This document shows positions 5,244-20,722 of a stretch of 20,722 bases of DNA, one piece after another. The position numbers and the translations under genes are program-made. The notes beneath the pieces are model-generated. The model did not search any database. It saw only the letters and a program-made list of their open reading frames with translations, and was not told the DNA's origin. The DNA comes from a virus, in IMG/VR virus record IMGVR_UViG_3300031757_000414, positions 1 through 20,722 of that record; one strand, given 5' to 3'. How positions within the stretch are numbered: position 1 is the stretch's first letter; every line of letters starts with the position of its first letter.

Positions 5244-8200
5244 ATGGCCGACAGGGCCGATATCCTTGCTGGTCTTGGAACGAGATCGGACATCATCAAC
5301 ACTGGTCGAACCAAAGGCAGCAACAGGGCTGCCATCATGGGGGCGTTGCCTATCGGTAGCCCTACGTCGTACACAGGGATGCTTGATGACGCCCTAATAA
5401 AACTCGAAGAGCAGGGGCTGTTGACAACTCCAGTCCCGTCTCTACGTTTCGACATACCTGAGGCCGGCTACCCCAGAGGCGACCTGCTAGATATCGAGAA
5501 AGCTGACAAGCCGCGATCATTACTGGGTCGAGCCAAGGGATCTGCTGGCATGAAAGCGTTGCGTTTCGGCGTATCCATTCCTGCGTCAACAGCGATGGAA
5601 ACAATGGACCTACTCACAGGCCAGGGACCGTCAGCGAAAGACTGGTGGAAACAGTCGTTCAATGAACCTATCGGATGGCGTCATGTACGTGAGAAACACC
5701 CAGATGTGTACAAGTGGGGCGCTCTTCCCGTTCAACCCTTTGCTCCTCTCTTTTGGATACCTGCGACTCTCGACCTAGCGGGCTGGGAAACGGGAGCAGA
5801 TTTCGCTGCCGACATGACATTCGATCTTTGGAATGTTGCCGGCGGTTTGGGAAAGTTTGCTGGTTGGACCAGAGGCGCCGCTGGTATAGCTGACGACTTG
5901 GTGGAAGCGGCTGGCAGGGTAGGTGGGCGTGAAGGTGTGTTCGCTGCAGGTAGCGCACAGCAGGAAGTGGCACTTGTTGCTTCAGGGATTATACGTCGAG
6001 AGAAGTCTATTTCTGCTGGTGTCAGATATTTGAACAAGACTCCTGCTGGTCAGGAAGTCATGCGGGTCATGGGTATCACCCCTGGCATACGGTTCCGTGT
6101 CCCAGGTACTGGGCCTGTTACCCGCTGGTTTGGTTTAGATCGTTTGCCAGGAGTTGGTAAACGCGTGGCTGCGGTAAGGGCACGCCAAACCCCAGAGTTC
6201 TATAAGCGAGCAGCGAAAGTCACTGATGAAGAACTTGCTGCAGAAATTTTGCGGCAACGTCAGGCCCATAAACCGTTCGATTGGTGGCGTATCGGCGACG
6301 ACGCAGTCGTCAATCCGAACGATCCTATTCAGACTCTTGCTCGTCGTTCTTCGAAGCAACCAATCGAGTTGGTGATTCCTGGGCAAAAGGGCAGCGTCGG
6401 TGTTGCTCACGTAATGGATGCTCCGATTCGGGGCCGCAATGCTTTACGGGGAATAAATCCTGAGAAGTGGGATGCGGCGATGAAGATGGCGCTCCCAGCG
6501 ATGTTCACCAGTCCATACAAATTCTTGGATACTTTCATCAATTCCGATAATCCTATCGTCGGGTTTGTTGGTGCCCGTATCAAAGAGGCTGGCCGTAACG
6601 CTGACTGGCGTTCCCGCGATTTTAACGCCGAGCTAGTTAATCGGGTTCAGAAAGCTTTGAACGAAGCCAATGTTTTGAATAAGAATCTTGCGAAGGGCGA
6701 TGCGCTTCAAGAGTTGGCGTACATGGATGACATTTGGATTCGTGGTGCTGACGGGGAGATTCTGTCACGTAGACCACAGGTCGCTACTGGTGATCTTGGT
6801 GCGTTGACTGACGACGAGTTGACGAACCTGTTCGACCTTGTGAAACAGGTTGAGATTTTCACACGGGAAACCCAGATGGCTGCCCGTGGAGCAGAGTTCA
6901 AGATGAGTGTCGATGAGATCCTCGAGATGGAGGGTGCGTATCAGCCGCGCCTCCCCACTGAAGAGGGCTACGAGATGCTTGGCAAAGAAAGCAGTGGCGA
7001 GTTACCTCACGGGAAAATCAAATTCGAGGGACGTTTCGAAGCATCAAACTTGAAGGACCGCAAGATAAGAGTTGGTGACCCTGTTGATCTGATTGACCCT
7101 AAGACTGGTCAGAAGGTTCGTGTCCTTGATGAGGTGTTGGATCCGCGGGAGTCGGGTCGTTCTGTTGTCAAGCAGGTGAATGATGCCGCTAATGAAGCGG
7201 GACTCCCTCAGGTGTATGAAACATCTTTCTTGGAGACATGGGGCCGTTACGGCAATGTCATGGGTGACGACTACAGGCTTCGTCTCATAGAGAACGAGTT
7301 CGAGAAGCTCGGGTTGATCATCGATGACCGTGAGGCTTTGACGAAGTTGGGGAAGATTCGGGACAACATAGGGAAAATAGAACCCAAGGTCAACAAAGCC
7401 AAAGACTTAGTGGTTAAGGCTCGGAAGGAAGCTAAAGATTTTGATAGGAAACGTCGGGAGGCATGGAAGGGAGATTCGCGGCCACGGTTCCCTAACAGTG
7501 AAGATGGATTACGAACTGCGGTGAAGATGGAGCAGGCTTTCAACGAGAAGTCTGCTTTGAGTGCCGAGTTAGAGATCATTGATGCTGAACTTGATGTGGT
7601 TCGGGCACAGTTACGTGACCTACCCAAGGACGGTGCGAATAATTCGATTAAGAACAAACAGTATTTGGATGCTGTTGAGCGAGCCAACGAGTTGGCTGCT
7701 CGAGTACGTGCGATTGAAGATATGCGTAAAGCCATCGATGAGGTGGTCGACACGTTGCAACGTATGCGTGCTCTTGAACAGGCTGGTGATCCCAGGAATC
7801 TGACACCCGAGGCTCGGGTCATGTCGAGAGCCCGCCGTGGTGTGACGGCTGACGACGAGGCAGTCCCCTTCGTCATGTATCAGGAACTTGATGACATCCT
7901 GGCTGCCCAGTTGGACCGTATCGAAACTCAGGTAATACCGTCGGTTCGCGAACTAGCTGAACGGTTCGGTTTCGCCACTAGAGAGGCAGAACAACTACAG
8001 GATTTGGTAGCGGCCAGTCGAGGCGAACTACGTGTAGCCCGCAACAGGAAACAGAAGATCGATTCCCGAGTCAAAGTATTTAATGACCGAATTAGAGAGT
8101 TCAAAGATCTGGACTCAGAGTTGGGGTATGAAACTCAACTCGCTTCAGCTAACCCAGATATTCCTTTAGAGCAGCAACTCCTTATTGCTCAAACCAATTT

Positions 8201-10166
8201 GGAACGGCAGAACCAGTGGATACAGCAGCAGATGGCTGCAGTCGGTGGCGGCGGGGAACTGGTTCCTGCCGGCACGGTTATCGATTTGCCGTCTGGCCCA
8301 TTGGAGTTACCGACTCAGTTGGTGAGTCGACGTAAACGCTTGGGGTTGGAGAAAACCCAGCTGGATCAACGCAAAAACGAAATACTCGTTGAACTCGCTG
8401 CAAAGAACGAACAGATCAACGCCTTGTACGTGACGATGAATGAGCAGTTTGCTAAAGCGCAACGAGCCATAGAATTGGGTGCGGCTCGAAACATTAAGCG
8501 TGAAGAAGAGTTGGGGAAGATGGCGCAGTACGAGTACGACGCTGCTCAACTGGAGTTCGATGAACTGATCCCACTGTACGACGAATTCCAACGCACTCTT
8601 GATGAGATCGCTAGTCGTGTGCAACGTGGCATGGATGGCACTGAAGCCGCTGGGATGCGTATCTCTGAAGCGTACGGAACTTTGGAGCAGGGCCTCGAGG
8701 AGTTAGGTGCGATGCCTGTCCGCGAAACTGCTGAAGCGATTGACGATCTACAAAAGATATTGCGTGATGATGTTGACCGTTGGGGTAACTGGCAGGTTCT
8801 TGGTTCAGAAGAGATAACAACACGCGAAGTCCAAGACATGCTCACTACCTTCCAGCAGATCAACCACCGCGAGAGCGTAAAGGGCGCTATCAAACACTGG
8901 AACACGATTCAGAGATTCTTGAAGTCACAGCAGTTGGCTACTCCTGGTTTCGTGCTGCGTAATACACAGGGTGCTTTCTGGAATGCGTGGCAGATGGGTG
9001 TGCCACCCAGCGATTTGATTCGCGCGTTCAGAATGTTGAGGCATGCCAGGGAGATCGGCAACGGCGACTATCAGGCTGGTGTGCGGCAACTTGCCGAAGA
9101 GACAGGCAGGAACGACTGGAACAACATGCTGGAGTTGATGGACTCTGGTGTGATGCGTTCAGGTATGGGCGCTCAGTCGGTTGAGCAGGCTCTGGCTGTA
9201 GATGTGAATCTGGCGGTCAAGATTGGTCGACGTAAAAGTGGACCGAAAGAGGGTCAGGCGTACAGGTTTGAGATGAACCCGTTGCGCCCTGAGTTCGCAG
9301 TCAACCAAGGTATTCGTTCTGCGAACAACATGGTTGAAGATGCTGTCCGTTTGGGCACTGGTATGCATGTCCGCTACGAGGGCGGCACCATCGGTGAGGC
9401 TCTCGAATTGATCGCTCGAACCCAGTTCGATTACAACGAACTCAGTGAAGCTGAACGCTGGTTGAAGCAGTTCGTGTTCCCGTTCTGGACATGGACGAGG
9501 AAGAACTTGCCGTTGCAGTTAAGCATGCTGTGGCGCAAGCCAGGGAAACTGAATCGGCTGCTCACTATCAAGGACAATATCGAAGCGATGTCTGAGGAAG
9601 AAAGGAACGTGCCAGCGTTCTTTATGGAACCGTTTGGTGTACGCCTACCGTTCGCTCCTGGTGGGTCACAAATATATTTCGTTCCTGATTTGCCGTTCGT
9701 GGATCTATTCAGAGCCGACTTCACATCAGAAGAGTTCCTTACGAAAACTATTTTGTCTGACATGACTCCTGTCGTAAAAGCACCCATCGAGTTAGCTCTG
9801 AGCAAACAGTTCTTCAAGGGCATACCGATATCCAACAGATACCAAAAATTTCCTGTGCTCGGTCAGGTGCCAGGACTGAAGCAAGCAATAAGCGCTTTAC
9901 CACTGATACGCGATGGCAAGATACGAGCTAACCATCTGTATTTTATTGAGCAAATGATTCCAATGTTTGGACGCATGAGACGCATCATCCCCACCGAAGA
10001 GCGGTATCAAGGGGATCGACATTTGCAGTCGTTCTTGTCCATGGGGCTCGGGTTGCCTGCACGGTTCAACAACAGGGATGCTCAACGTATGGCCCGTAAC
10101 CAGCGTGCCCGTGACCGTGCTGCTGCACGGCAAGATAGACGCGATTTGAGAGACGCTGACCGATAA
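5244..10166 (+). CDS. Giant 1640-aa virion protein with long coiled coil
   Basis: This is by far the largest gene in the window. Residues 1-100 are irregular. Residues ~110-215 contain hydrophobic stretches (VQPFAPLFWIPATLDLAGW) that could contact membrane. Residues ~690-1165 are a long charged, heptad-rich coiled coil full of Glu, Lys, Arg, Gln and Leu. A compact domain follows with LRNTQGAFWNAWQMG at about 1238 and FVFPFWTWTRKNLPLQ at 1410-1425, then an Arg-rich C-terminus (RNQRARDRAAARQDRRDLRD). The L-R-N-x-x-G and P-F-W-T-W-T-R motifs recall very large structural proteins of actinophages and uncultured phages whose function is not settled. No lysozyme or transglycosylase motif was seen. 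Tape measure, ejection protein or DNA-injection channel are the alternatives. Codon use matches its neighbours. Confidence 0.65.
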   Translation: MADRADILAGLGTRSDIINTGRTKGSNRAAIMGALPIGSPTSYTGMLDDALIKLEEQGLLTTPVPSLRFDIPEAGYPRGDLLDIEKADKPRSLLGRAKGSAGMKALRFGVSIPASTAMETMDLLTGQGPSAKDWWKQSFNEPIGWRHVREKHPDVYKWGALPVQPFAPLFWIPATLDLAGWETGADFAADMTFDLWNVAGGLGKFAGWTRGAAGIADDLVEAAGRVGGREGVFAAGSAQQEVALVASGIIRREKSISAGVRYLNKTPAGQEVMRVMGITPGIRFRVPGTGPVTRWFGLDRLPGVGKRVAAVRARQTPEFYKRAAKVTDEELAAEILRQRQAHKPFDWWRIGDDAVVNPNDPIQTLARRSSKQPIELVIPGQKGSVGVAHVMDAPIRGRNALRGINPEKWDAAMKMALPAMFTSPYKFLDTFINSDNPIVGFVGARIKEAGRNADWRSRDFNAELVNRVQKALNEANVLNKNLAKGDALQELAYMDDIWIRGADGEILSRRPQVATGDLGALTDDELTNLFDLVKQVEIFTRETQMAARGAEFKMSVDEILEMEGAYQPRLPTEEGYEMLGKESSGELPHGKIKFEGRFEASNLKDRKIRVGDPVDLIDPKTGQKVRVLDEVLDPRESGRSVVKQVNDAANEAGLPQVYETSFLETWGRYGNVMGDDYRLRLIENEFEKLGLIIDDREALTKLGKIRDNIGKIEPKVNKAKDLVVKARKEAKDFDRKRREAWKGDSRPRFPNSEDGLRTAVKMEQAFNEKSALSAELEIIDAELDVVRAQLRDLPKDGANNSIKNKQYLDAVERANELAARVRAIEDMRKAIDEVVDTLQRMRALEQAGDPRNLTPEARVMSRARRGVTADDEAVPFVMYQELDDILAAQLDRIETQVIPSVRELAERFGFATREAEQLQDLVAASRGELRVARNRKQKIDSRVKVFNDRIREFKDLDSELGYETQLASANPDIPLEQQLLIAQTNLERQNQWIQQQMAAVGGGGELVPAGTVIDLPSGPLELPTQLVSRRKRLGLEKTQLDQRKNEILVELAAKNEQINALYVTMNEQFAKAQRAIELGAARNIKREEELGKMAQYEYDAAQLEFDELIPLYDEFQRTLDEIASRVQRGMDGTEAAGMRISEAYGTLEQGLEELGAMPVRETAEAIDDLQKILRDDVDRWGNWQVLGSEEITTREVQDMLTTFQQINHRESVKGAIKHWNTIQRFLKSQQLATPGFVLRNTQGAFWNAWQMGVPPSDLIRAFRMLRHAREIGNGDYQAGVRQLAEETGRNDWNNMLELMDSGVMRSGMGAQSVEQALAVDVNLAVKIGRRKSGPKEGQAYRFEMNPLRPEFAVNQGIRSANNMVEDAVRLGTGMHVRYEGGTIGEALELIARTQFDYNELSEAERWLKQFVFPFWTWTRKNLPLQLSMLWRKPGKLNRLLTIKDNIEAMSEEERNVPAFFMEPFGVRLPFAPGGSQIYFVPDLPFVDLFRADFTSEEFLTKTILSDMTPVVKAPIELALSKQFFKGIPISNRYQKFPVLGQVPGLKQAISALPLIRDGKIRANHLYFIEQMIPMFGRMRRIIPTEERYQGDRHLQSFLSMGLGLPARFNNRDAQRMARNQRARDRAAARQDRRDLRDADR

Positions 10167-10189: not shown

Positions 10190-10969
10190 GTGATGGAGTA
10201 CACATCTCGCAAACAGTGGGGCGCAACGCCACCTAAAAAGCCTTTCAGTAGGCTTCGACCCTCACGGGTCGTTGGCGTCGTTTTGCATCACAGCGGGGTG
10301 AAAAACGGCCCCACAGGACACGACGCTGCTAGAGCATTCGAGGCGTATCACCTATCTAAACGATGGGCAGGCATCGCCTACAACTGGATGGTCACTGAAT
10401 CGGGCGAAGTCCTCGAGGGGCGGGGTGCAGGTGCTGTCTCAGCAGCTACCAAAGGATGGAACTCGCGGACAGAGAGTGTGATGTACACAGGCTGGGGTTC
10501 TGGGATTGTTCCTGAGGCAGCACTGCACTCCTTAAAGAGAGTCATCGAGGATGTGCAAGACAGGTATTTGGATTCACTGTGGGTGAAGCCTCACAAAAAT
10601 TTGGGGACCACATCGTGCCCTGGGTCATTCCTGATCAACTGGTTATCTGAGGGTATGCCATCTGGCACCGAAAGTTCATTCGATTGGGCAGTTGTTGATA
10701 TGGCGCACTTCAAGCGACGCAGTTTCAACGACCGCTATTTAGAAGAGATTCGTAAAGCCCCGTTGAGTCGCCGGCGGCGAAGCAGGGGGGAAATTGTTCG
10801 TGTCGTACAGGTGCGTCTCAAGGAACGTGGGCATGACCCTGGGGTCGCCGATGGAGTGGCGGGGCCTTTATTTGAGGCCGCTGTCAAGTCGTTCCAATCG
10901 GCGTGTGGCTGGTTGAAGCCTGACGGTGTTGTCGATACGAGAACTTTTCATGCCCTATTTATTCAATAG
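10190..10969 (+). CDS. Endolysin: zinc N-acetylmuramoyl-L-alanine amidase with PG-binding domain
   Basis: This 259-aa enzyme is predicted to cut the amide bond between MurNAc and L-Ala in peptidoglycan at the end of infection. The N-terminal Amidase_2/PGRP domain (about 8-155) shows LHHSG with His33/His34, AYNWMV with Tyr64 and a G-E-V-L-E-G-R-G strand. It continues with KPHKNLGTTSCPG, where His135 and Cys143 complete the zinc site in the same way as T7 lysozyme. An Arg-rich linker (about 193-200) joins a C-terminal peptidoglycan-binding domain (about 200-258) with VVQVRLKERGHDPG, ADGVAGPLFEAAVKSFQ and PDGVVDTRTF. No signal peptide is visible, so release would depend on a holin. The start is either GTG 10190 or the directly following ATG 10193; no strong Shine-Dalgarno favours one. 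It opens the lysis cassette, 23 nt after the giant virion gene. Confidence 0.93.
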   Translation: MMEYTSRKQWGATPPKKPFSRLRPSRVVGVVLHHSGVKNGPTGHDAARAFEAYHLSKRWAGIAYNWMVTESGEVLEGRGAGAVSAATKGWNSRTESVMYTGWGSGIVPEAALHSLKRVIEDVQDRYLDSLWVKPHKNLGTTSCPGSFLINWLSEGMPSGTESSFDWAVVDMAHFKRRSFNDRYLEEIRKAPLSRRRRSRGEIVRVVQVRLKERGHDPGVADGVAGPLFEAAVKSFQSACGWLKPDGVVDTRTFHALFIQ

Positions 10970-12560: not shown

Positions 12561-12931
12561 AACTTGAATGCGTTGATACTTTTCACCAGTTTGTCGTTCG
12601 TGAACGCACCACTGATGCTCCCGTCGAATATTGCACCTTGCTGTAACCCGTCGAGCGTCAGCTTTACGAGGTTATCTAGATCCCCTCCCCAATGAGAGGT
12701 TGGATGCTCGATCTCTTTCACCCAGATCGAGGAACCGTTCCTGTCGTAGATGACAGTCACATCGACAGGCACATCAAGCATTGGGTGGCCGGCATTGTGC
12801 CATGCTTGACGCACACACTGCTCTGCCAAGATCGTCGTCGCTGGTGTATAGGTTCGCCTTCTCGACATCCTTGGCCGCTCTTTCGGCTTAGGTCGAGAAT
12901 CGACATGACAAAAGTATCCCTCAGGTTCCAT
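12557..12931 (-). CDS. rusA: RusA-family Holliday junction resolvase
   Basis: This 124-aa protein is predicted to cut four-way DNA junctions formed during phage replication and recombination. The basic N-terminus (SRPKPKERPRMSRRRTYTP) is typical of RusA. The core has WGGDLDNLVKLTLDGL with Asp84, Asp86, Asn87, Lys90 and Asp94, and a later acidic residue in FTNDKLV (Asp113). These match the D-x-D-N-x-x-K-x-x-x-D signature and the third catalytic Asp. The start at 12931 is chosen because AAGGAG sits 6 nt upstream; a longer version would overlap the primase gene by more than 100 nt. The start overlaps the primase 3' end by 11 nt and the stop overlaps the next GTG, so it is translationally embedded in the replication operon. 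Confidence 0.88.
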   Translation of the reverse strand: MEPEGYFCHVDSRPKPKERPRMSRRRTYTPATTILAEQCVRQAWHNAGHPMLDVPVDVTVIYDRNGSSIWVKEIEHPTSHWGGDLDNLVKLTLDGLQQGAIFDGSISGAFTNDKLVKSINAFKL

Positions 12932-13895
12932 GGAGAACTCCTTGGTCGGCTCGGTAACGACGGTCAGCAGCAGCGACCATCTCAGCGTAACGCTGATCGG
13001 CGTCGGGCCGGTCAGAGAACTTTCGAGCGAAGCGTGCATCCCAGTCAGACAAAGTTCGGATCACCTCATCGTGCGGCCATCCAGCGCCAAGTAGTCCCAC
13101 AGCGAGAGTGAACATCGATTTTGAACGATCCACTTTGCCGTTAATCATGGCTGGTCCACGGTCCAATATTTCTTGACTGACTGAACCCACTCGTCGGCGT
13201 TTCGCCCACGACAAACGGCGGGTAGGTATCGGTGACGGGGTCACCACCTTGGGGGCAAGATCTTCGAGTTCCTCGAAGACTGGCGCTGGGTAGCGGTGGG
13301 CTGTCGCTTCTTTAACGAACTCATCGACGCTAAGGGTCCAAGATCCTCGACGCACTACTTGCTTCCCATGGAACCCAACCCTGGGGTAGGGCAAACGGAT
13401 GCCGTTCCCGAACCCTTTCCCAGATAGCGCTATCTGTTTCGGATAGACCTCAACGACTGGGGCCTTGACCACCGAGCACGCAGCCATCAATGCGTTCCGC
13501 ATTGTCTTCGCTGAGACTGGTTCTTTGGCGTACACCCACAGGTGGACACCTTTGCTGCGAGAGATCTCAGTGAAAGAGGTAACTCCATACATGTCGAGGA
13601 CGTTCGTTACGTTCGCTGCATGTATGAGTGAGTGTTCGGGGTAGTCCCGATCTTTATCTAGGTCCCAATCAACTGCACCCCACCATACGGTGGGGGGAGT
13701 GGTGGACATCAATGGGTACACACCGAGGGGTTCATCCCCGTATAGGTGGTCGTCTATCGCAGCGAGATATGCTGGCCCTTCGTGGGCAGTTGGTTTCCCA
13801 TCAGGGTCTTTACGTGGACGAAACTCATCGCCAGCGTCAGCTACTGCGCCTCCCTGATGGAGGTCGGCAAAGTTTTGAACGAGTTCAGAAGTCAT
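12921..13895 (-). CDS. Archaeo-eukaryotic type primase (AEP, TOTE-like)
   Basis: This 324-aa protein is predicted to synthesise primers and possibly act as a primase-polymerase. AEP motif I is WWGAVDWD with Asp76 and Asp78 as metal ligands. Motif II is ISRSKGVHLWVY, with Ser114-x-Gly-x-His118 giving the nucleotide-binding S-x-G-x-H form. A downstream VVEVYPKQ plus GNGIRLPY (about 148-170) matches the E-(I/V)-(F/Y)-P-K-Q and G-N-x-I-x-L-P block of primases related to the TOTE conflict-system AEP. The C-terminal ~80 residues (RSKSMFTLAVGLLGAGWPHDEVIRTLSDWD) resemble a helical primase C-terminal domain. It overlaps the helicase gene by 11 nt on one side and rusA by 11 nt on the other. No zinc finger is visible. 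A polymerase-only role is the alternative. Confidence 0.82.
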   Translation of the reverse strand: MTSELVQNFADLHQGGAVADAGDEFRPRKDPDGKPTAHEGPAYLAAIDDHLYGDEPLGVYPLMSTTPPTVWWGAVDWDLDKDRDYPEHSLIHAANVTNVLDMYGVTSFTEISRSKGVHLWVYAKEPVSAKTMRNALMAACSVVKAPVVEVYPKQIALSGKGFGNGIRLPYPRVGFHGKQVVRRGSWTLSVDEFVKEATAHRYPAPVFEELEDLAPKVVTPSPIPTRRLSWAKRRRVGSVSQEILDRGPAMINGKVDRSKSMFTLAVGLLGAGWPHDEVIRTLSDWDARFARKFSDRPDADQRYAEMVAAADRRYRADQGVLHGT

Positions 13896-14883
13896 CGGCT
13901 TCGGGGACTAGATCTGTGGTGTACTCCCTGATCTGACCAGACTCAGGATCCAAATAGTAGGTGAGGTCGCCTCGGAGGTTGCCGCGCTTGTTCTTCACAA
14001 GGTTGATGTTGATCGAGTTCTCATGAAAGCGACGTTCGGCTGCGCTCAAGTCCGAACGGTCCCGCTGACGGTACACCTCGTAAGCGAAGATAGCTTCTTG
14101 TTCTCCACCGAAACGCGAGGAGTACAGGCCAGCGGATTCGCCGACAGTTCCCGATCTCCCCTGCTGGTGGATGAGTACGACAGGGATGTCTGCCTCTTTA
14201 GCAAATATTTTCATGCCCTGCGCTTTAGCGATCACCCCTTGAGAGTCAGCTGCGCCTGCGCCACCGAAGAGTTCGAGGTAGTCGCAGACCGTTAGCGTCG
14301 CTGGCATCTGCCAGTAGTCTTCCGCTTCGACGACGACATCATGCATCGTTTGAAACGACGGCGAACCGTCATAGATCAAGAGTTTGTCGAGGTAGTTCCC
14401 TGGCTCTGCTAGTTCGGTCAGGTGAGCAACGAGAGCAGGGTCACCTTCACGCATTCGTTTCTCTACCTCAATCGAGTTGAGCCCAAACATGAGCGAGTAG
14501 AACTTTGCGACGATCAGTTCGCGAGGCTCATCTGGGCTAAACAGAATGATGCGAACGTCCTCCACGTTTAAAAGAGAGTGGATGCAGGCGTTGAATACAA
14601 CCTGCGATTTTCCCATGTGGGATCTCCCCATGAACAATGCAAGTTCACCTCGCCCGAGGCCCCTGGTCATTACATCGAGTCGATGGAATCCAGTGAGCCA
14701 GCGGGCCTCAGGGTTGGTGGCGTAATCGATCCATGAAGAGACTGCTGTGCTCGTCGGATCGATCAGGTTAAAAGAACGCGCCGGCACTTTCGGAGTTTGA
14801 TCGATTTCTTTATTGGCAGAACGCAGGGAGAGGACGCTTTGCTCAATATCGGATCGCTCCAGAAGTACCGGCGCGTCACTCAC
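13885..14883 (-). CDS. DnaB-like replicative helicase, RecA-fold domain only
   Basis: This 332-aa ATPase is predicted to unwind DNA at the fork. Walker A is GRSHMGKS (86-93). The catalytic Glu is probably E119 in FSPDEPRELI, Walker B is LTVCDYLEL with Asp201, and the sensor strand is LIHQQGRS (238-244). The motif-4-like block is NLVKNKRGNLRGDLTYYLD (295-313), matching the K-N-R-x-G of DnaB. Compared with DnaB (about 450 aa) it lacks the N-terminal primase-interacting domain, having only ~65 residues before the core. The start is a GTG sharing one base with the previous TAG. Being adjacent to a separate AEP primase, it may form a split primase-helicase pair. A KaiC/RecA-type ATPase is less likely given the motif set. 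Confidence 0.85.
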   Translation of the reverse strand: MSDAPVLLERSDIEQSVLSLRSANKEIDQTPKVPARSFNLIDPTSTAVSSWIDYATNPEARWLTGFHRLDVMTRGLGRGELALFMGRSHMGKSQVVFNACIHSLLNVEDVRIILFSPDEPRELIVAKFYSLMFGLNSIEVEKRMREGDPALVAHLTELAEPGNYLDKLLIYDGSPSFQTMHDVVVEAEDYWQMPATLTVCDYLELFGGAGAADSQGVIAKAQGMKIFAKEADIPVVLIHQQGRSGTVGESAGLYSSRFGGEQEAIFAYEVYRQRDRSDLSAAERRFHENSININLVKNKRGNLRGDLTYYLDPESGQIREYTTDLVPEADDF

Positions 14884-15412: not shown

Positions 15413-16288
15413 TTATACACTGACTTCTTTCTTTATTGTCAGAATCGGTCGACCAAGATCTCTTACATCATCGGTCACGTACTTACCCCTACAGTCAGAC
15501 CACGCTGGGCACCAGTCTGCGGAACAGAACCACGAGTCCCATTTCTGCGGGAGAGCTGTCAAGTTCGCTTCGAGAGTCACGGCTAAACCCACGATCATGT
15601 CGATGAGTGCCTCGTGTTCTCGTTCGTTGCGACCCATCTCTATCCAAGAGGGCTCGTCAACTATTAGTCCATTTCTTTTCTTCACGGGAGGGAGAAGATG
15701 GCACAGTGTGAACCGTTCGATACCTGTAGCAAATGTGTACACAACTGATTGCAGATTGGAGCGACGCGTCAGCCACTCATCTCGGGGTGGGCCGCCTGGG
15801 TTTTTCCAGTCCACGATTCGAGACAACGGATCCCCTGGTTCACCTTCAACCCAGTCAGGCGTCCCTGTTAAATAGATTTGACGTACAGCATCCTCGTACG
15901 CCAAGAATTCGAACTTCTGTTCAATGGCACTGGGGCGACGCAAAACAGGGAGGGCCTTCTCGTACCACTGCGTCAACCGCTGGTTGACCTGCTCCAAAAC
16001 TTTTTCTGGGTTCGCCCGCCACGTTGTGTCAGGCATTGATGATTCCTCTTCGAAGCATCGCTCTCCAAGTTCGAGCAATGTCACCAACGGCATCTGGGTA
16101 TCTTCGATCATCCATTCAAGACCGAACGCTTCAATCGAATTATGGACAGCATTGCCTCGAACGAAGTCAGAGTTGTTTTGCTCCTTGATCAGGCCAGCAT
16201 GTTTACGTCGACCGTACTCAGGGCATTTCCAGAAGTCATTGATGTTTGACTGACGGAACTTGTGTATGTGCTTAGGGGGTGTGACCAT
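15413..16288 (-). CDS. Cas4/RecB-type PD-(D/E)XK exonuclease with Fe-S cysteines
   Basis: This 291-aa nuclease shows the whole RecB/Cas4 signature. It has an R-G-N-A-V-H motif with His49, GTPDWV with Asp145, RIVDWKNPG with Asp160-x-Lys162, and a Q-x-x-x-Y motif in LQSVVYTF (Gln180, Tyr184). Cys22 near the N-terminus and Cys255, Cys260, Cys266 near the C-terminus are the four ligands expected for a 4Fe-4S cluster. It is predicted to degrade or trim DNA ends during recombination or replication. GAGG about 6 nt before the ATG supports the start. It is the first gene of the leftward replication block, preceded by a ~270-nt non-coding region, and leads into the ssDNA-binding-like gene after a 23-nt gap. 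No CRISPR array or other cas gene is nearby. Confidence 0.85.
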   Translation of the reverse strand: MVTPPKHIHKFRQSNINDFWKCPEYGRRKHAGLIKEQNNSDFVRGNAVHNSIEAFGLEWMIEDTQMPLVTLLELGERCFEEESSMPDTTWRANPEKVLEQVNQRLTQWYEKALPVLRRPSAIEQKFEFLAYEDAVRQIYLTGTPDWVEGEPGDPLSRIVDWKNPGGPPRDEWLTRRSNLQSVVYTFATGIERFTLCHLLPPVKKRNGLIVDEPSWIEMGRNEREHEALIDMIVGLAVTLEANLTALPQKWDSWFCSADWCPAWSDCRGKYVTDDVRDLGRPILTIKKEVSV

Positions 16289-16555: not shown

Positions 16556-17488
16556 TCACGCCGACATCCGTTCCTTCAGGTCTTCCTCTAACCCGTCACT
16601 CATGTCCACATAATATTTTTGTGTCGTCGCACTGGTGGCATGATTCATCAATCCTGCGACCCTCTCAATGGGCAGTCCTGCTTGGAAAAGGTTGTGACCG
16701 AACGAATGCCGCAAGTCGTGCGGGGTGAACGGCAACGACGATTCGTTTTTCCCTGAATAGACGAACCCAGCAGGGTTCCAAAAGAAAGTTTGAAGGCGAC
16801 GGGTCGACTCGGGCTCACCTCGACCCTGGGGAATCAGGTAGCCACCACGGGACTCTGATCGCAACATCAACTCCTTGTAGGCCAGCCACACACGCCACGC
16901 ATCATGACCACACTCTTCATGTTTCTCAGCAAGAAACTCACCAACAGCTACCCAAGGGAGTGACTGGTGGTCTGTCCCTCGTTTGGTGCGTTTCCTCTGA
17001 ACCAACAAACGGTCGTTCTGCACATGTTCCGTTTTGAGTCGAGCCATCTCGTTGGCACGCAACCCTCCGAACCAGCCAAGCCCCAAACAGAAACGCAACT
17101 CGTCCCGAAACTCAGCGTGCGGCAACGAATAAAAATTTTCCAAGGGGACATGACGTTTGAGGCGCTCAGAAATTTTCGGAACAGCGTCCCTCAGCCTCAA
17201 CCCGTAGTCCTTCGGAAGGTGCTCGTACCTGTACGCCCAATCATAAAAAGAACGCAGGACATTTAAGTCGTTCTTGATTCGGTACTTCGACGGTTCACCT
17301 GTTCTACGCGACCGATAAGCGAAGTCAACTAGATCCCCATCGGTTGGCGCCAACTGGTCAGTGTCGACCTTCAACCAGTTAGACAGAACGTGACGTAACG
17401 AATGCATCGTCTGGTCAGTGGCCTCGGTTCTGCGTTTGCGCCACTCCAAATATTCCGCAACTAACTCTTCTGCTGATCTACTACCCAT
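16556..17488 (-). CDS. int: Tyrosine recombinase (phage integrase)
   Basis: This 310-aa site-specific recombinase is predicted to integrate and excise the phage genome. The N-terminal SAM-like core-binding domain spans about 1-105 (SAEELVAEYLEWRKRR, then RIKNDLNVLRSFYDWAYR). The catalytic domain has Arg144 in GWFGGLRANEMARL, a Lys in KRTKRG (166 or 169) and His257-x-x-Arg260 in FTPHDLRHSFGHNLFQ. His283 in MNHAT and nucleophile Tyr292 in TTQKYY complete the full set. It lacks an obvious extra arm-type-site domain, so it is on the short side for lambda-type integrases. A GGGAGGA ribosome binding site lies close before the ATG inside a hairpin. The neighbouring small HTH gene could be its excisionase or regulator. 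A terminator lies ~130 nt downstream. Confidence 0.93.
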   Translation of the reverse strand: MGSRSAEELVAEYLEWRKRRTEATDQTMHSLRHVLSNWLKVDTDQLAPTDGDLVDFAYRSRRTGEPSKYRIKNDLNVLRSFYDWAYRYEHLPKDYGLRLRDAVPKISERLKRHVPLENFYSLPHAEFRDELRFCLGLGWFGGLRANEMARLKTEHVQNDRLLVQRKRTKRGTDHQSLPWVAVGEFLAEKHEECGHDAWRVWLAYKELMLRSESRGGYLIPQGRGEPESTRRLQTFFWNPAGFVYSGKNESSLPFTPHDLRHSFGHNLFQAGLPIERVAGLMNHATSATTQKYYVDMSDGLEEDLKERMSA

Positions 17489-19297: not shown

Positions 19298-20086
19298 ATG
19301 ACAACCCACGTAGTGATGTACTCAGGGGGGAAAGCATCATGGCTAGCGGCATGGAAAGTTCAGGACCGGTACCCAGAGGATCAGATAGACCTCTTGTTTG
19401 CTGACACCAGAACTGAGGACGAAGACCTGTACAGGTTCCTCAGTGAGGGGGCTGAAGCACTCAACCTCCCACTCATAGAGGTAGCCGACGGTCGAAACAT
19501 TTGGGAGGTATTCCGAGAGGAACGATTCCTAGGGAACAACCGAGTCCCTATCTGCTCACGCGTCCTTAAGCAAGAAACGTCAGCGAAGTATGTGCGAGAG
19601 AACTATGACCCTGACGACTCGGTGCTGTACTTCGGGATTGATTGGACCGAAGCGCACCGTGCCGACCGCATACCTAAACATTGGGAACCATATGAGGTGG
19701 ACTTCCCGCTGTTGTGGGAACCAGTCACCGACAAAACCGACGCCGACATGTTGTTAGCGAGGTACGGAATTGAGCAGCCCCACCTGTACGACCTCGGTGC
19801 TCCGCACAACAACTGTGGTGGGCTGTGCGTCAGGGCAGGGCACGGCCATTTTAAGTGGGCGCTTGAAAATATTCCTGAGACGTACAGAGTGTGGGAACTG
19901 GAAGAGCAAGCGTTGCGAGACTACCTGGAAGCCGATGTGGCGATACTGCGGGACCGCCGCGGTGGGACAACTCGACCAATGACTATGACCGAGTTCCGAG
20001 AGCGAGTCCAAGAGAAAGACACGCAACTCGATCTGTTTGATTGGGGCGGGTGCGGCTGTATGGTCGAATACGATGAAGATCCTTAG
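19298..20086 (+). CDS. PP-loop ATPase, PAPS reductase/DndC-like family
   Basis: This 262-aa protein starts with MTTHVVMYSGGKASW, where Ser9-Gly10-Gly11-x-x-Ser14 is the PP-loop of the adenine nucleotide alpha-hydrolase/PAPS reductase superfamily. These proteins activate a substrate by adenylation or bind a sulfonucleotide. Cysteines are placed in three clusters: Cys86 (VPICSRVLK), Cys173/Cys177 (NNCGGLCVRAGHGHF) and Cys252/Cys254 (GGCGC). They suggest an Fe-S or thiol-transfer function. True PAPS reductase usually has a C-terminal ECGLH motif, which is absent, so assimilatory sulfate reduction is unlikely. DndC-type DNA phosphorothioation, tRNA thiolation or nucleotide modification are possible. 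No dndB, dndD or dndE-like gene is visible. It overlaps the C5-methyltransferase gene by 14 nt. The start lacks a Shine-Dalgarno, consistent with a leaderless transcript. Confidence 0.75.
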   Translation: MTTHVVMYSGGKASWLAAWKVQDRYPEDQIDLLFADTRTEDEDLYRFLSEGAEALNLPLIEVADGRNIWEVFREERFLGNNRVPICSRVLKQETSAKYVRENYDPDDSVLYFGIDWTEAHRADRIPKHWEPYEVDFPLLWEPVTDKTDADMLLARYGIEQPHLYDLGAPHNNCGGLCVRAGHGHFKWALENIPETYRVWELEEQALRDYLEADVAILRDRRGGTTRPMTMTEFRERVQEKDTQLDLFDWGGCGCMVEYDEDP

Positions 20087-20722
20087 CCTGTGCTCAGGGT
20101 ACGGTGGCCTCGACCTAGCAGTCGAACAATTCTTTGGAGCCACCACCACCCACTGGTCCGAGACAGACAGCGCCGCCTGCAAAGTGATGGAGGCCAGATG
20201 GCCCGACGCCTCACCACTAGGGGATCTGAGACAGCTGAATTCGCATCAGCTTGACGACATTGAGATCATCACTGCAGGTTTCCCCTGCCAACCCTATTCG
20301 AATGCGGGCCTACTGAAAGGTACTCATGACCAGCGAGCAATCTTCCCCCATATCGGGAAAATTATTGGCAACATTCGACCGCGACTCGTCGTGCTGGAAA
20401 ACGTCGGAGGCATCCTTATTAGGGGAGGCCCAGAAGTCATTGCCACGCTTACCTCCCACGGGTATGACGACATCAGATGGACTGTTGTTCGAGCAAGCGA
20501 CGCCCATGCACCTCATCGAAGAGCGCGCTGGTTCTGTGTTGCCGCTGCTGCCGACGCCAGTAGTGAACGACATGGGGGACGACAAGACACTCGAGTGGTG
20601 GCACGACTGGATCAAAGAGAAGAGACTGCAACACAACAACAGCAACGGCCACGGCAAGAGCCTGTCGGTCGAGGCACGGCTTATGACCGAGCCTTACGAC
20701 GATGGGAGCACACCATCGGACG
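20073..20722 (+). CDS. C5-cytosine DNA methyltransferase (3' end beyond window)
   Basis: The first 216 residues are present and the gene runs off the right edge. Motif I is LSLCSGYGGLDLAVE (residues 4-18), motif IV with catalytic Cys72 is AGFPCQPYSNAGL, motif VI is VVLENVGG (Glu109-Asn110-Val111) and motif VIII is APHRRARWF (146-154). All fit a DNA (cytosine-5)-methyltransferase that flips and methylates cytosine using SAM. After motif VIII the sequence turns Gln/Arg/Asp-rich and low-complexity (about 160-200) before YDRALRRWEHTIG, which resembles the post-insert segment of actinobacterial homologues. The ATG overlaps the PP-loop gene by 14 nt. From 20326 onward a second frame is also open with protein-like content. 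Motifs IX-X would lie outside the window. An orphan phage methyltransferase is most likely. Confidence 0.9.
   Translation, partial: MKILSLCSGYGGLDLAVEQFFGATTTHWSETDSAACKVMEARWPDASPLGDLRQLNSHQLDDIEIITAGFPCQPYSNAGLLKGTHDQRAIFPHIGKIIGNIRPRLVVLENVGGILIRGGPEVIATLTSHGYDDIRWTVVRASDAHAPHRRARWFCVAAAADASSERHGGRQDTRVVARLDQREETATQQQQRPRQEPVGRGTAYDRALRRWEHTIG
20326..20722 (+). CDS. +1-frame ORF overlapping the C5-methyltransferase (partial)
   Basis: ATG 20326 lies in the +1 frame relative to the methyltransferase and has GAAAGG 5 nt upstream. The frame is then open for 132 codons to the window end, while the same frame upstream is broken by several stops. The product begins MTSEQSSPISGKLLATF and has SSCWKTSEASLLGE (21-34), PPTGMTTSDG (43-52), LPLLPTPVVNDMG (72-84) and NGHGKSLSVEARL (107-119). 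This W-x-T-S, G-M-T, repeated LPTP-x-x-x-D layout resembles, from memory, a family of hypothetical proteins in actinobacteria and their phages. It covers methyltransferase motifs VI and VIII, so both frames would be under selection. A chance open frame or a frameshifted methyltransferase insert are the alternatives. The start and openness are seen; family membership is unverified. Confidence 0.55.
   Translation, partial: MTSEQSSPISGKLLATFDRDSSCWKTSEASLLGEAQKSLPRLPPTGMTTSDGLLFEQATPMHLIEERAGSVLPLLPTPVVNDMGDDKTLEWWHDWIKEKRLQHNNSNGHGKSLSVEARLMTEPYDDGSTPSD

Follow-up and report, generated by a model that had tools for sequence, protein, structure and literature searches.

A conserved second reading frame inside a phage C5-cytosine DNA methyltransferase gene points to a probable dual-coded, two-subunit enzyme

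The end of the viral IMG/VR record IMGVR_UViG_3300031757_000414 presents a C5-cytosine methyltransferase gene whose DNA seems to be readable as protein in two frames. We asked whether both readings are genuine and, if so, what the second protein might do. The analyzed stretch, called the window here, comprises 20,722 nt (positions 1 to 20,722 of the record). A sequence-only reading had proposed that methyltransferase motifs run unbroken through frame 0, that a +1 frame begins at an ATG with its own Shine-Dalgarno sequence and continues without a stop over 132 codons up to the edge, and that the codons for LENV of motif VI yield WKTS in +1. All three observations held. Frame 0 is open from the ATG at 20073 up to the window edge, and its product matched PF00145 at residues 1-175 in a profile search (E 1.5e-35); the +1 open reading frame (ORF) starts with the ATG at 20326. 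We refer to the two products as alpha (frame 0) and beta (+1). The features are as follows:

20073-20722, + strand: alpha, the C5-cytosine methyltransferase in frame 0, identified by the PF00145 match and a confident C5-methyltransferase model; crosses the window edge
20315-20320, + strand: Shine-Dalgarno-like GAAAGG, from sequence, 5 nt before the beta ATG
20326-20722, + strand: beta, the nested ORF in the +1 frame, identified by its open frame, a phrog_1008 match and a +1-type substitution pattern in the family and against ten relatives
20394-20405, + strand: motif VI, LENV in frame 0 and WKTS in +1, from sequence
20508-20534, + strand: motif VIII region, APHRRARWF in frame 0 and overlapped by +1, from sequence and alignment; frame-0 fourfold divergence is reduced over VI-VIII in nested relatives
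20544-20681, + strand: dual-coded segment, in frame 0 a Gln/Arg linker predicted to be disordered (pLDDT 44-51 at alpha residues 161-200) and in +1 the module LPTPVVNDMG...NGHGKSLSVEAR, with family substitutions concentrated at +1 third positions

From the same DNA, frame 0 reads RVVARLDQREETATQQQQRPRQ where +1 reads LPTPVVNDMGDDKTLEWW; elsewhere, +1 reads GMT where frame 0 reads GYD, and FEQAT where frame 0 reads VRASD. The window's own record ends at the edge. Contig L010 (IMGVR_UViG_3300037674_001089), which differs by 2 mismatches in the shared part, extends beyond it. There, beta comprises 138 aa and stops 20 nt past the edge, and alpha comprises 275 aa and ends 178 nt past it, so the beta gene lies entirely within the methyltransferase gene. 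The continuation of alpha, TAYDRALRRWEHTIGRPAPPALTDGRLSPRFVEWLQGL...LLGNGVCPPQ, corresponds to motifs IX-X. Alpha in L010 combines in one chain the C5-methyltransferase features, including motifs I, IV (PCQ), VI (ENV), VIII, IX and X, with the corresponding fold. The earlier remark that frame 0 turns Gln/Arg-rich where +1 reads LPTP is thus accurate for that segment, but the change is not permanent, as motifs IX-X and a stop follow in L010.

Relatives were gathered from viral contigs, which were queried with the +1 protein, with the methyltransferase and with a fused homologue; one genome scan and annotated phages supplemented this set; for the methyltransferase search, the best 80 matches were kept, with a bias to full-length frame-0 genes. 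We obtained 146 distinct classified loci, of which 71 were nested, 43 split and 22 fused, with a few in no class. In the nested layout, frame 0 encodes motifs I-VIII, a linker and IX-X, and +1 reads W[KR]TS...GMT...LPTP modules. In the split layout, found in phiBT1, Lilbooboo, Camerico, Samy, Zaka and Winget, among others, frame 0 stops soon after motif VIII, and the modules and IX-X lie on the +1 chain. In the fused layout, exemplified by ShiLan gp70, core, LPTP modules and IX-X are all in frame 0. These classes are partly defined by openness; the substitution tests described below are independent of it. The +1 gene is sometimes already annotated, as 'DNA methylase'. In phiBT1 (NC_004664.2), the +1 chain with the methyltransferase C-terminal half is unannotated and the frame-0 gene carries the remark 'may be inactive'. 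The one strong cellular match with nested layout was a contig (L216) from an assembled Acidimicrobiaceae metagenome (TMED189), which hints at marine actinobacterial hosts.

In a PHROG profile search, window beta matched phrog_1008 over residues 2-88 (E 6.7e-6), as did +1 chains of relatives (L011, 2e-17; L016, 4e-10; L018, 2e-11; best value 9e-86). Independent homologues of the +1 product therefore exist, in phrog_1008 and in the separately annotated genes Winget gp5, Zaka gp90 and LIKHA_52. The impression that +1 reads like a real family is borne out by the phrog_1008 match but not by all the words that had prompted it: WKTS, GMT and FE over VI-VIII largely follow from conserved frame-0 motifs. 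No Pfam match to beta was found up to E 1, an HNH nuclease domain included, nor any solved structure similar by sequence, and Rfam returned no family at threshold within the window.

Could the +1 ORF be an untranslated by-product, kept open and similar by frame-0 motifs, codon bias and composition? Such an origin would account for the words shared over VI-VIII, and +1 is also open in many fused loci. Openness, however, exceeds that of synonymous shuffles: when synonymous codons were permuted across the whole window gene without altering the frame-0 protein, 0.84% of the shuffles left the +1 span open. Because stop statistics are inflated in loci preselected for openness, we ran the test again with 54 non-fused loci that had been retrieved by frame-0 methyltransferase motifs only, without reference to +1. 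Over 240 nt around motif VIII, +1 was free of stops in all 54 (15.5 expected), as compared to 8 of 54 for the +2 frame (7.1 expected).

Substitution patterns were compared in independent pairs of relatives, counting only aligned blocks with at least 60% identity; pairs were compared at the nucleotide level, so that no frame was favored by the alignment. In nested loci, rates at frame-0 codon positions 1/2/3 were.185/.135/.421 upstream of the overlap,.317/.113/.103 from motif VIII to the C-terminal domain and.160/.124/.376 in the C-terminal domain. Since frame-0 position 1 is the third position of +1, the DNA in the middle changes as expected of a gene for a +1 protein, flanked on either side by stretches that evolve in frame 0. 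The opposite direction was seen in 3 of 27 nested pairs. The other layouts are the expected controls: split loci exhibit the +1 pattern both after motif VIII (.297/.091/.071) and in the C-terminal domain (.296/.121/.081), and fused loci the frame-0 pattern throughout (.145/.071/.244 and.129/.122/.343, respectively). When the window gene was compared with ten relatives, changes at positions 1/2/3 numbered 174/131/383 upstream and 225/159/273 in the part of the overlap that ends at motif VIII; after VIII they numbered 124/84/86, and the C-terminal domain had 132/98/223. The closest relative by itself supplied too few changes after VIII (13/8/14) to tell the frames apart.

Synonymous variation gave a matching picture. 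Over motifs VI-VIII, where frame 0 dominates and +1 words partly follow from its motifs, frame-0 fourfold divergence was lower than upstream in nested (.306 versus.492, p 1e-11) and split loci (.207 versus.367, p 1e-9) but not in fused ones (.325 versus.361, p 0.42), indicating that the +1 reading is constrained there too where it is needed. After motif VIII, the nested value dropped to 0.069 versus 0.492 upstream. Frame-0 synonymous variation is, thus, suppressed across the overlap (fourfold 0.31-0.33 in VI-VIII and 0.07 after VIII, against 0.49 upstream). Fourfold sites that hardly change next to first positions that do cannot result from frame-0 selection or composition, and this pattern refutes the by-product explanation for the family, to which we assign a negligible chance. 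Conservation extends to both frames, and it is +1 that is under amino-acid selection once motif VIII is passed. The two-frame overlap of the window is, hence, confirmed as real. Of the three grounds named beforehand for rejecting it, namely a lack of independent +1 homologues, +1 stops in close relatives and normal synonymous variation in frame 0, none was borne out. A simple frameshift error, which had been doubted from the start, or a pseudogene is ruled out because each of the three layouts is conserved with a matching substitution pattern.

The same data bear on the converse possibility that only +1 matters after motif VIII, with frame 0 decaying and the C-terminus of alpha no longer made. 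Linker amino acids are indeed little constrained, and +1 fourfold divergence in this region reaches 0.65-0.90 of the upstream rate. Yet past the end of the overlap, the C-terminal domain of nested loci follows the frame-0 pattern, and loci fetched by beta motifs comprised 15 nested and 5 split cases. Stops in the frame-0 linker were also absent from all 71 nested loci (183-344 expected), a surprise that is overstated because these loci were chosen as open. We regard decay of frame 0 as scarcely credible.

How beta would be made was assessed from its 5' region. In 60 of 68 non-redundant nested loci, a +1 ATG is positioned ~200 nt ahead of the point where motif VIII ends, and in 46 of these 60 it is preceded by a Shine-Dalgarno-like tetramer, against a background of 10%. 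The Asp codon that creates this ATG is GAT in 44 of 54 cases, versus 86 of 242 elsewhere (p 7e-10). Both signals partly follow from frame-0 codons, as does the window's GAAAGG from Lys-Gly codons, and GAT is also kept in fused loci (10 of 10). An alternative is programmed ribosomal frameshifting near motif VIII, which would generate an alternative chain (core plus LPTP modules) and no free subunit. A +1 shift at this point would restore a full-length enzyme in split loci, and some annotated +1 genes begin late or after the frame-0 stop. A shift at VIII would not, however, call for the constraint that +1 shows ahead of this motif. The +1 ATG and Shine-Dalgarno-like site are conserved; Winget gp5 and Zaka gp90 are annotated with starts well upstream, and the shifted product of nested loci would be devoid of motifs IX-X. 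The conserved start signals, the GAT enrichment and the constraint on +1 upstream of VIII favor internal initiation, which is, thus, supported as the putative route to beta; we consider frameshifting improbable, though not to be dismissed.

In ordinary C5-methyltransferases, the target-recognition region is located between motifs VIII and IX, and it is from this DNA that the LPTP modules are read in +1. AlphaFold modeling predicted a confident C5-methyltransferase core for alpha (mean pLDDT 87). The structure that matched it best was M.HhaI, with 226 residues aligned to a chain of 327 (Z 24.7). Between VIII and IX, the model contains about 40 residues at pLDDT 44-51 and no ordered domain; the predicted disorder, at residues 161-200, coincides with the position where the beta module is read. 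The model thus gives alpha a linker that is supported as disordered, with no sign of an ordered target-recognition domain. For a fused homologue, the LPTP region was modeled with low confidence and without a confident fold.

Across relatives, we counted 151 internal LPTP-to-LPTP units with a median of 33 aa. In relatives with 85-98% identical cores, the sets and orders of LPTP modules differ, and these units, therefore, meet the expectation of short modules between VIII and IX that are exchanged among relatives. Their position and exchange between close relatives suggest that beta is probably a specificity subunit. A TL signature of target-recognition domains has been quoted (PMC2413257). Defined strictly as P[STCA]PT[ILV][TASV], this motif was rarely encountered: 68 nested betas contained 3 strict and 25 relaxed matches, the feature thus not being met, and the window module reads PTPVVN; among 68 nested alphas, one carried the motif. 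With 3 strict matches, the TL motif does not support beta as a proven target-recognition domain, and because of this rarity we put the inferred recognition role of the LPTP modules at about an even chance.

Beta might instead be translated and functional without recognizing DNA, for example by regulating, inhibiting or chaperoning the methyltransferase or by acting elsewhere, such as on host defense. The mostly missing strict TL motif fits such a role, as does a second nested +1 family from Bacillota, which does not cover the recognition region, as judged from the canonical APTLCS motif that the alpha of Streptococcus phage MM1 keeps in frame 0. Motifs IX-X on the same chain in split loci and the LPTP region as part of the enzyme in fused loci, on the other hand, tie beta to the methyltransferase. 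A non-recognition function is unlikely in our estimate, but it remains the most substantial competitor.

We propose that the locus encodes a dual-coded, two-subunit C5-cytosine DNA methyltransferase, which we consider likely although all evidence comes from sequence and no expression data exist. Alpha would provide the catalytic core (I-VIII), connected through a flexible linker to motifs IX-X at its C-terminus. From the internal ATG with its own Shine-Dalgarno sequence, ribosomes would additionally translate beta in +1 across VI-VIII and the linker. Beta would contribute exchangeable LPTP modules, dock on alpha and, most likely, supply or alter sequence recognition, and the phage could in this way methylate its own DNA against host restriction. 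A physical alpha-beta complex is inferred without expression data, methylation may or may not need both polypeptides, and the anti-restriction purpose is likewise an inference. The broader notion of a phage methyltransferase class with recognition modules encoded out of frame in a nested, cassette-swapping gene, where the catalytic gene reads a disordered linker and specificity resides in a separate, swappable subunit, is tentative, and we hold it at somewhat less than an even chance. The earlier suggestion that a whole family was overprinted from methyltransferase genes stands insofar as a conserved second +1 family exists (phrog_1008 and the separately annotated genes); with known precedents, it is best read as a methyltransferase subunit and not as an unrelated overprinted gene.

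Upstream of the methyltransferase, a PAPS-reductase-like gene (19298-20086; phrog_424, E 3.7e-43) overlaps its start by 14 nt; in ShiLan, a PAPS reductase (gp72) is located two genes after the methyltransferase gp70. The remaining window contains the following genes, by which the virus looks temperate:

16556-17488, - strand: tyrosine integrase
15413-16288, - strand: PD-(D/E)XK nuclease
13885-14883, - strand: DnaB-like helicase
12921-13895, - strand: primase related to AEP-TOTE
10190-10969, + strand: amidase with peptidoglycan-binding domain

For a further ORF of 1640 aa (5244-10166), no Pfam match was obtained.

The Bacillota family (phrog_16143) was detected at seven loci, in Streptococcus phage MM1 and in Enterococcus, Carnobacterium and Listeria plasmids, overlapping motifs IV-VIII. 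Outside the overlap, frame-0 fourfold divergence was.62 and.67; within it, the values were.25 and.24, all from pairs that are not independent. Its members (L218, 1352-1777; L228-L233) read KTS..GMMWNG..SLSDILEE..YFLS within dcm genes and are annotated as beta subunit only in MM1. In ctgrD200 (L226, 1258-2310 and 1445-2278), frame 0 matches phrog_363 and +1 matches phrog_1008 and phrog_31772; here, the DNA of the C-terminal half encodes two known methyltransferase endings, AEPAVGRVAHGVPSRVDRLKCLGNA in frame 0 and QLNPLWVEWLMGFPPEWT in +1. With these cases, out-of-frame partners seem to be widespread among the C5-methyltransferases of phages and plasmids. A second conserved protein is probably concealed behind many of their 'dcm' annotations; such subunits are mostly unannotated. 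If beta sets specificity or is needed for it, expression of alpha alone, as is common in methylome studies, would mislead or give a null result. Moreover, with its nested, split and fused layouts the family offers a natural series in which the origin and resolution of overlapping genes can be studied, with a simple and strong computational signature. A literature search, which did not cover most subscription journals, retrieved no paper on an LPTP-type nested subunit.

Several known systems share parts of this architecture. In M.EcoHK31I, beta is reportedly nested in alpha in another reading frame. M.AquI and M.EcoHK31I are two-polypeptide C5-methyltransferases, and M.EcoHK31I (and M.EaeI) naturally yields two polypeptides from one locus (PMC3404938), as is proposed for the window. 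Motif IX of M.EcoHK31I is on beta and the target-recognition domain with motif X on alpha (PMC3404938), whereas in the window type IX-X are part of alpha, and the LPTP modules part of beta. The window, thus, meets one feature of the M.EcoHK31I type, a second polypeptide from an overlapping ORF in another frame (the +1 ORF being under selection), but not another, motif IX on the small polypeptide; IX-X are on alpha in the window type and on beta in split loci only. We know of no LPTP modules reported for M.AquI. Its larger subunit contains I-VIII and its smaller one IX-X (PMC3404938), which is the layout of our split class, whereas the window belongs to the nested class. The LPTP-type chains of split phage genes, annotated in phrog_1008 as 'DNA methyltransferase', represent the same +1 chain as window beta; in longer members, of the split and Likha types, the +1 frame also encodes the C-terminal region, whereas window beta stops before it.

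Multispecific C5-methyltransferases of the Bacillus phages SPbeta, phi3T and H2 feature exchangeable modules of 30-45 aa between VIII and IX. The LPTP modules resemble these in position and exchangeability, but the Bacillus phage modules, which have the TL motif (PMC2413257), are in frame on a single chain, whereas LPTP modules are read in +1 and rarely match it. An unrelated out-of-frame HNH gene in another phage methylase has also been published (PMC11855218). Like beta, it lies concealed in an alternate frame of a phage methylase gene whose host frame lacks stops (PMC11855218). Beta, however, has no HNH match and overlaps conserved motifs VI-VIII, whereas the HNH gene is mobile and inserted into ShiLan gp65, a different methylase. 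In Streptococcus phage MM1, with its 'C5 methyltransferase alpha/beta subunit', beta is annotated as a nested +1 ORF inside alpha, as in the window. MM1 beta differs in belonging to phrog_16143, in overlapping IV-VIII only and in its lack of LPTP modules, with MM1 alpha retaining its own recognition motif; in the relatives of MM1, as in the window family, frame-0 synonymous sites are suppressed in the overlap.
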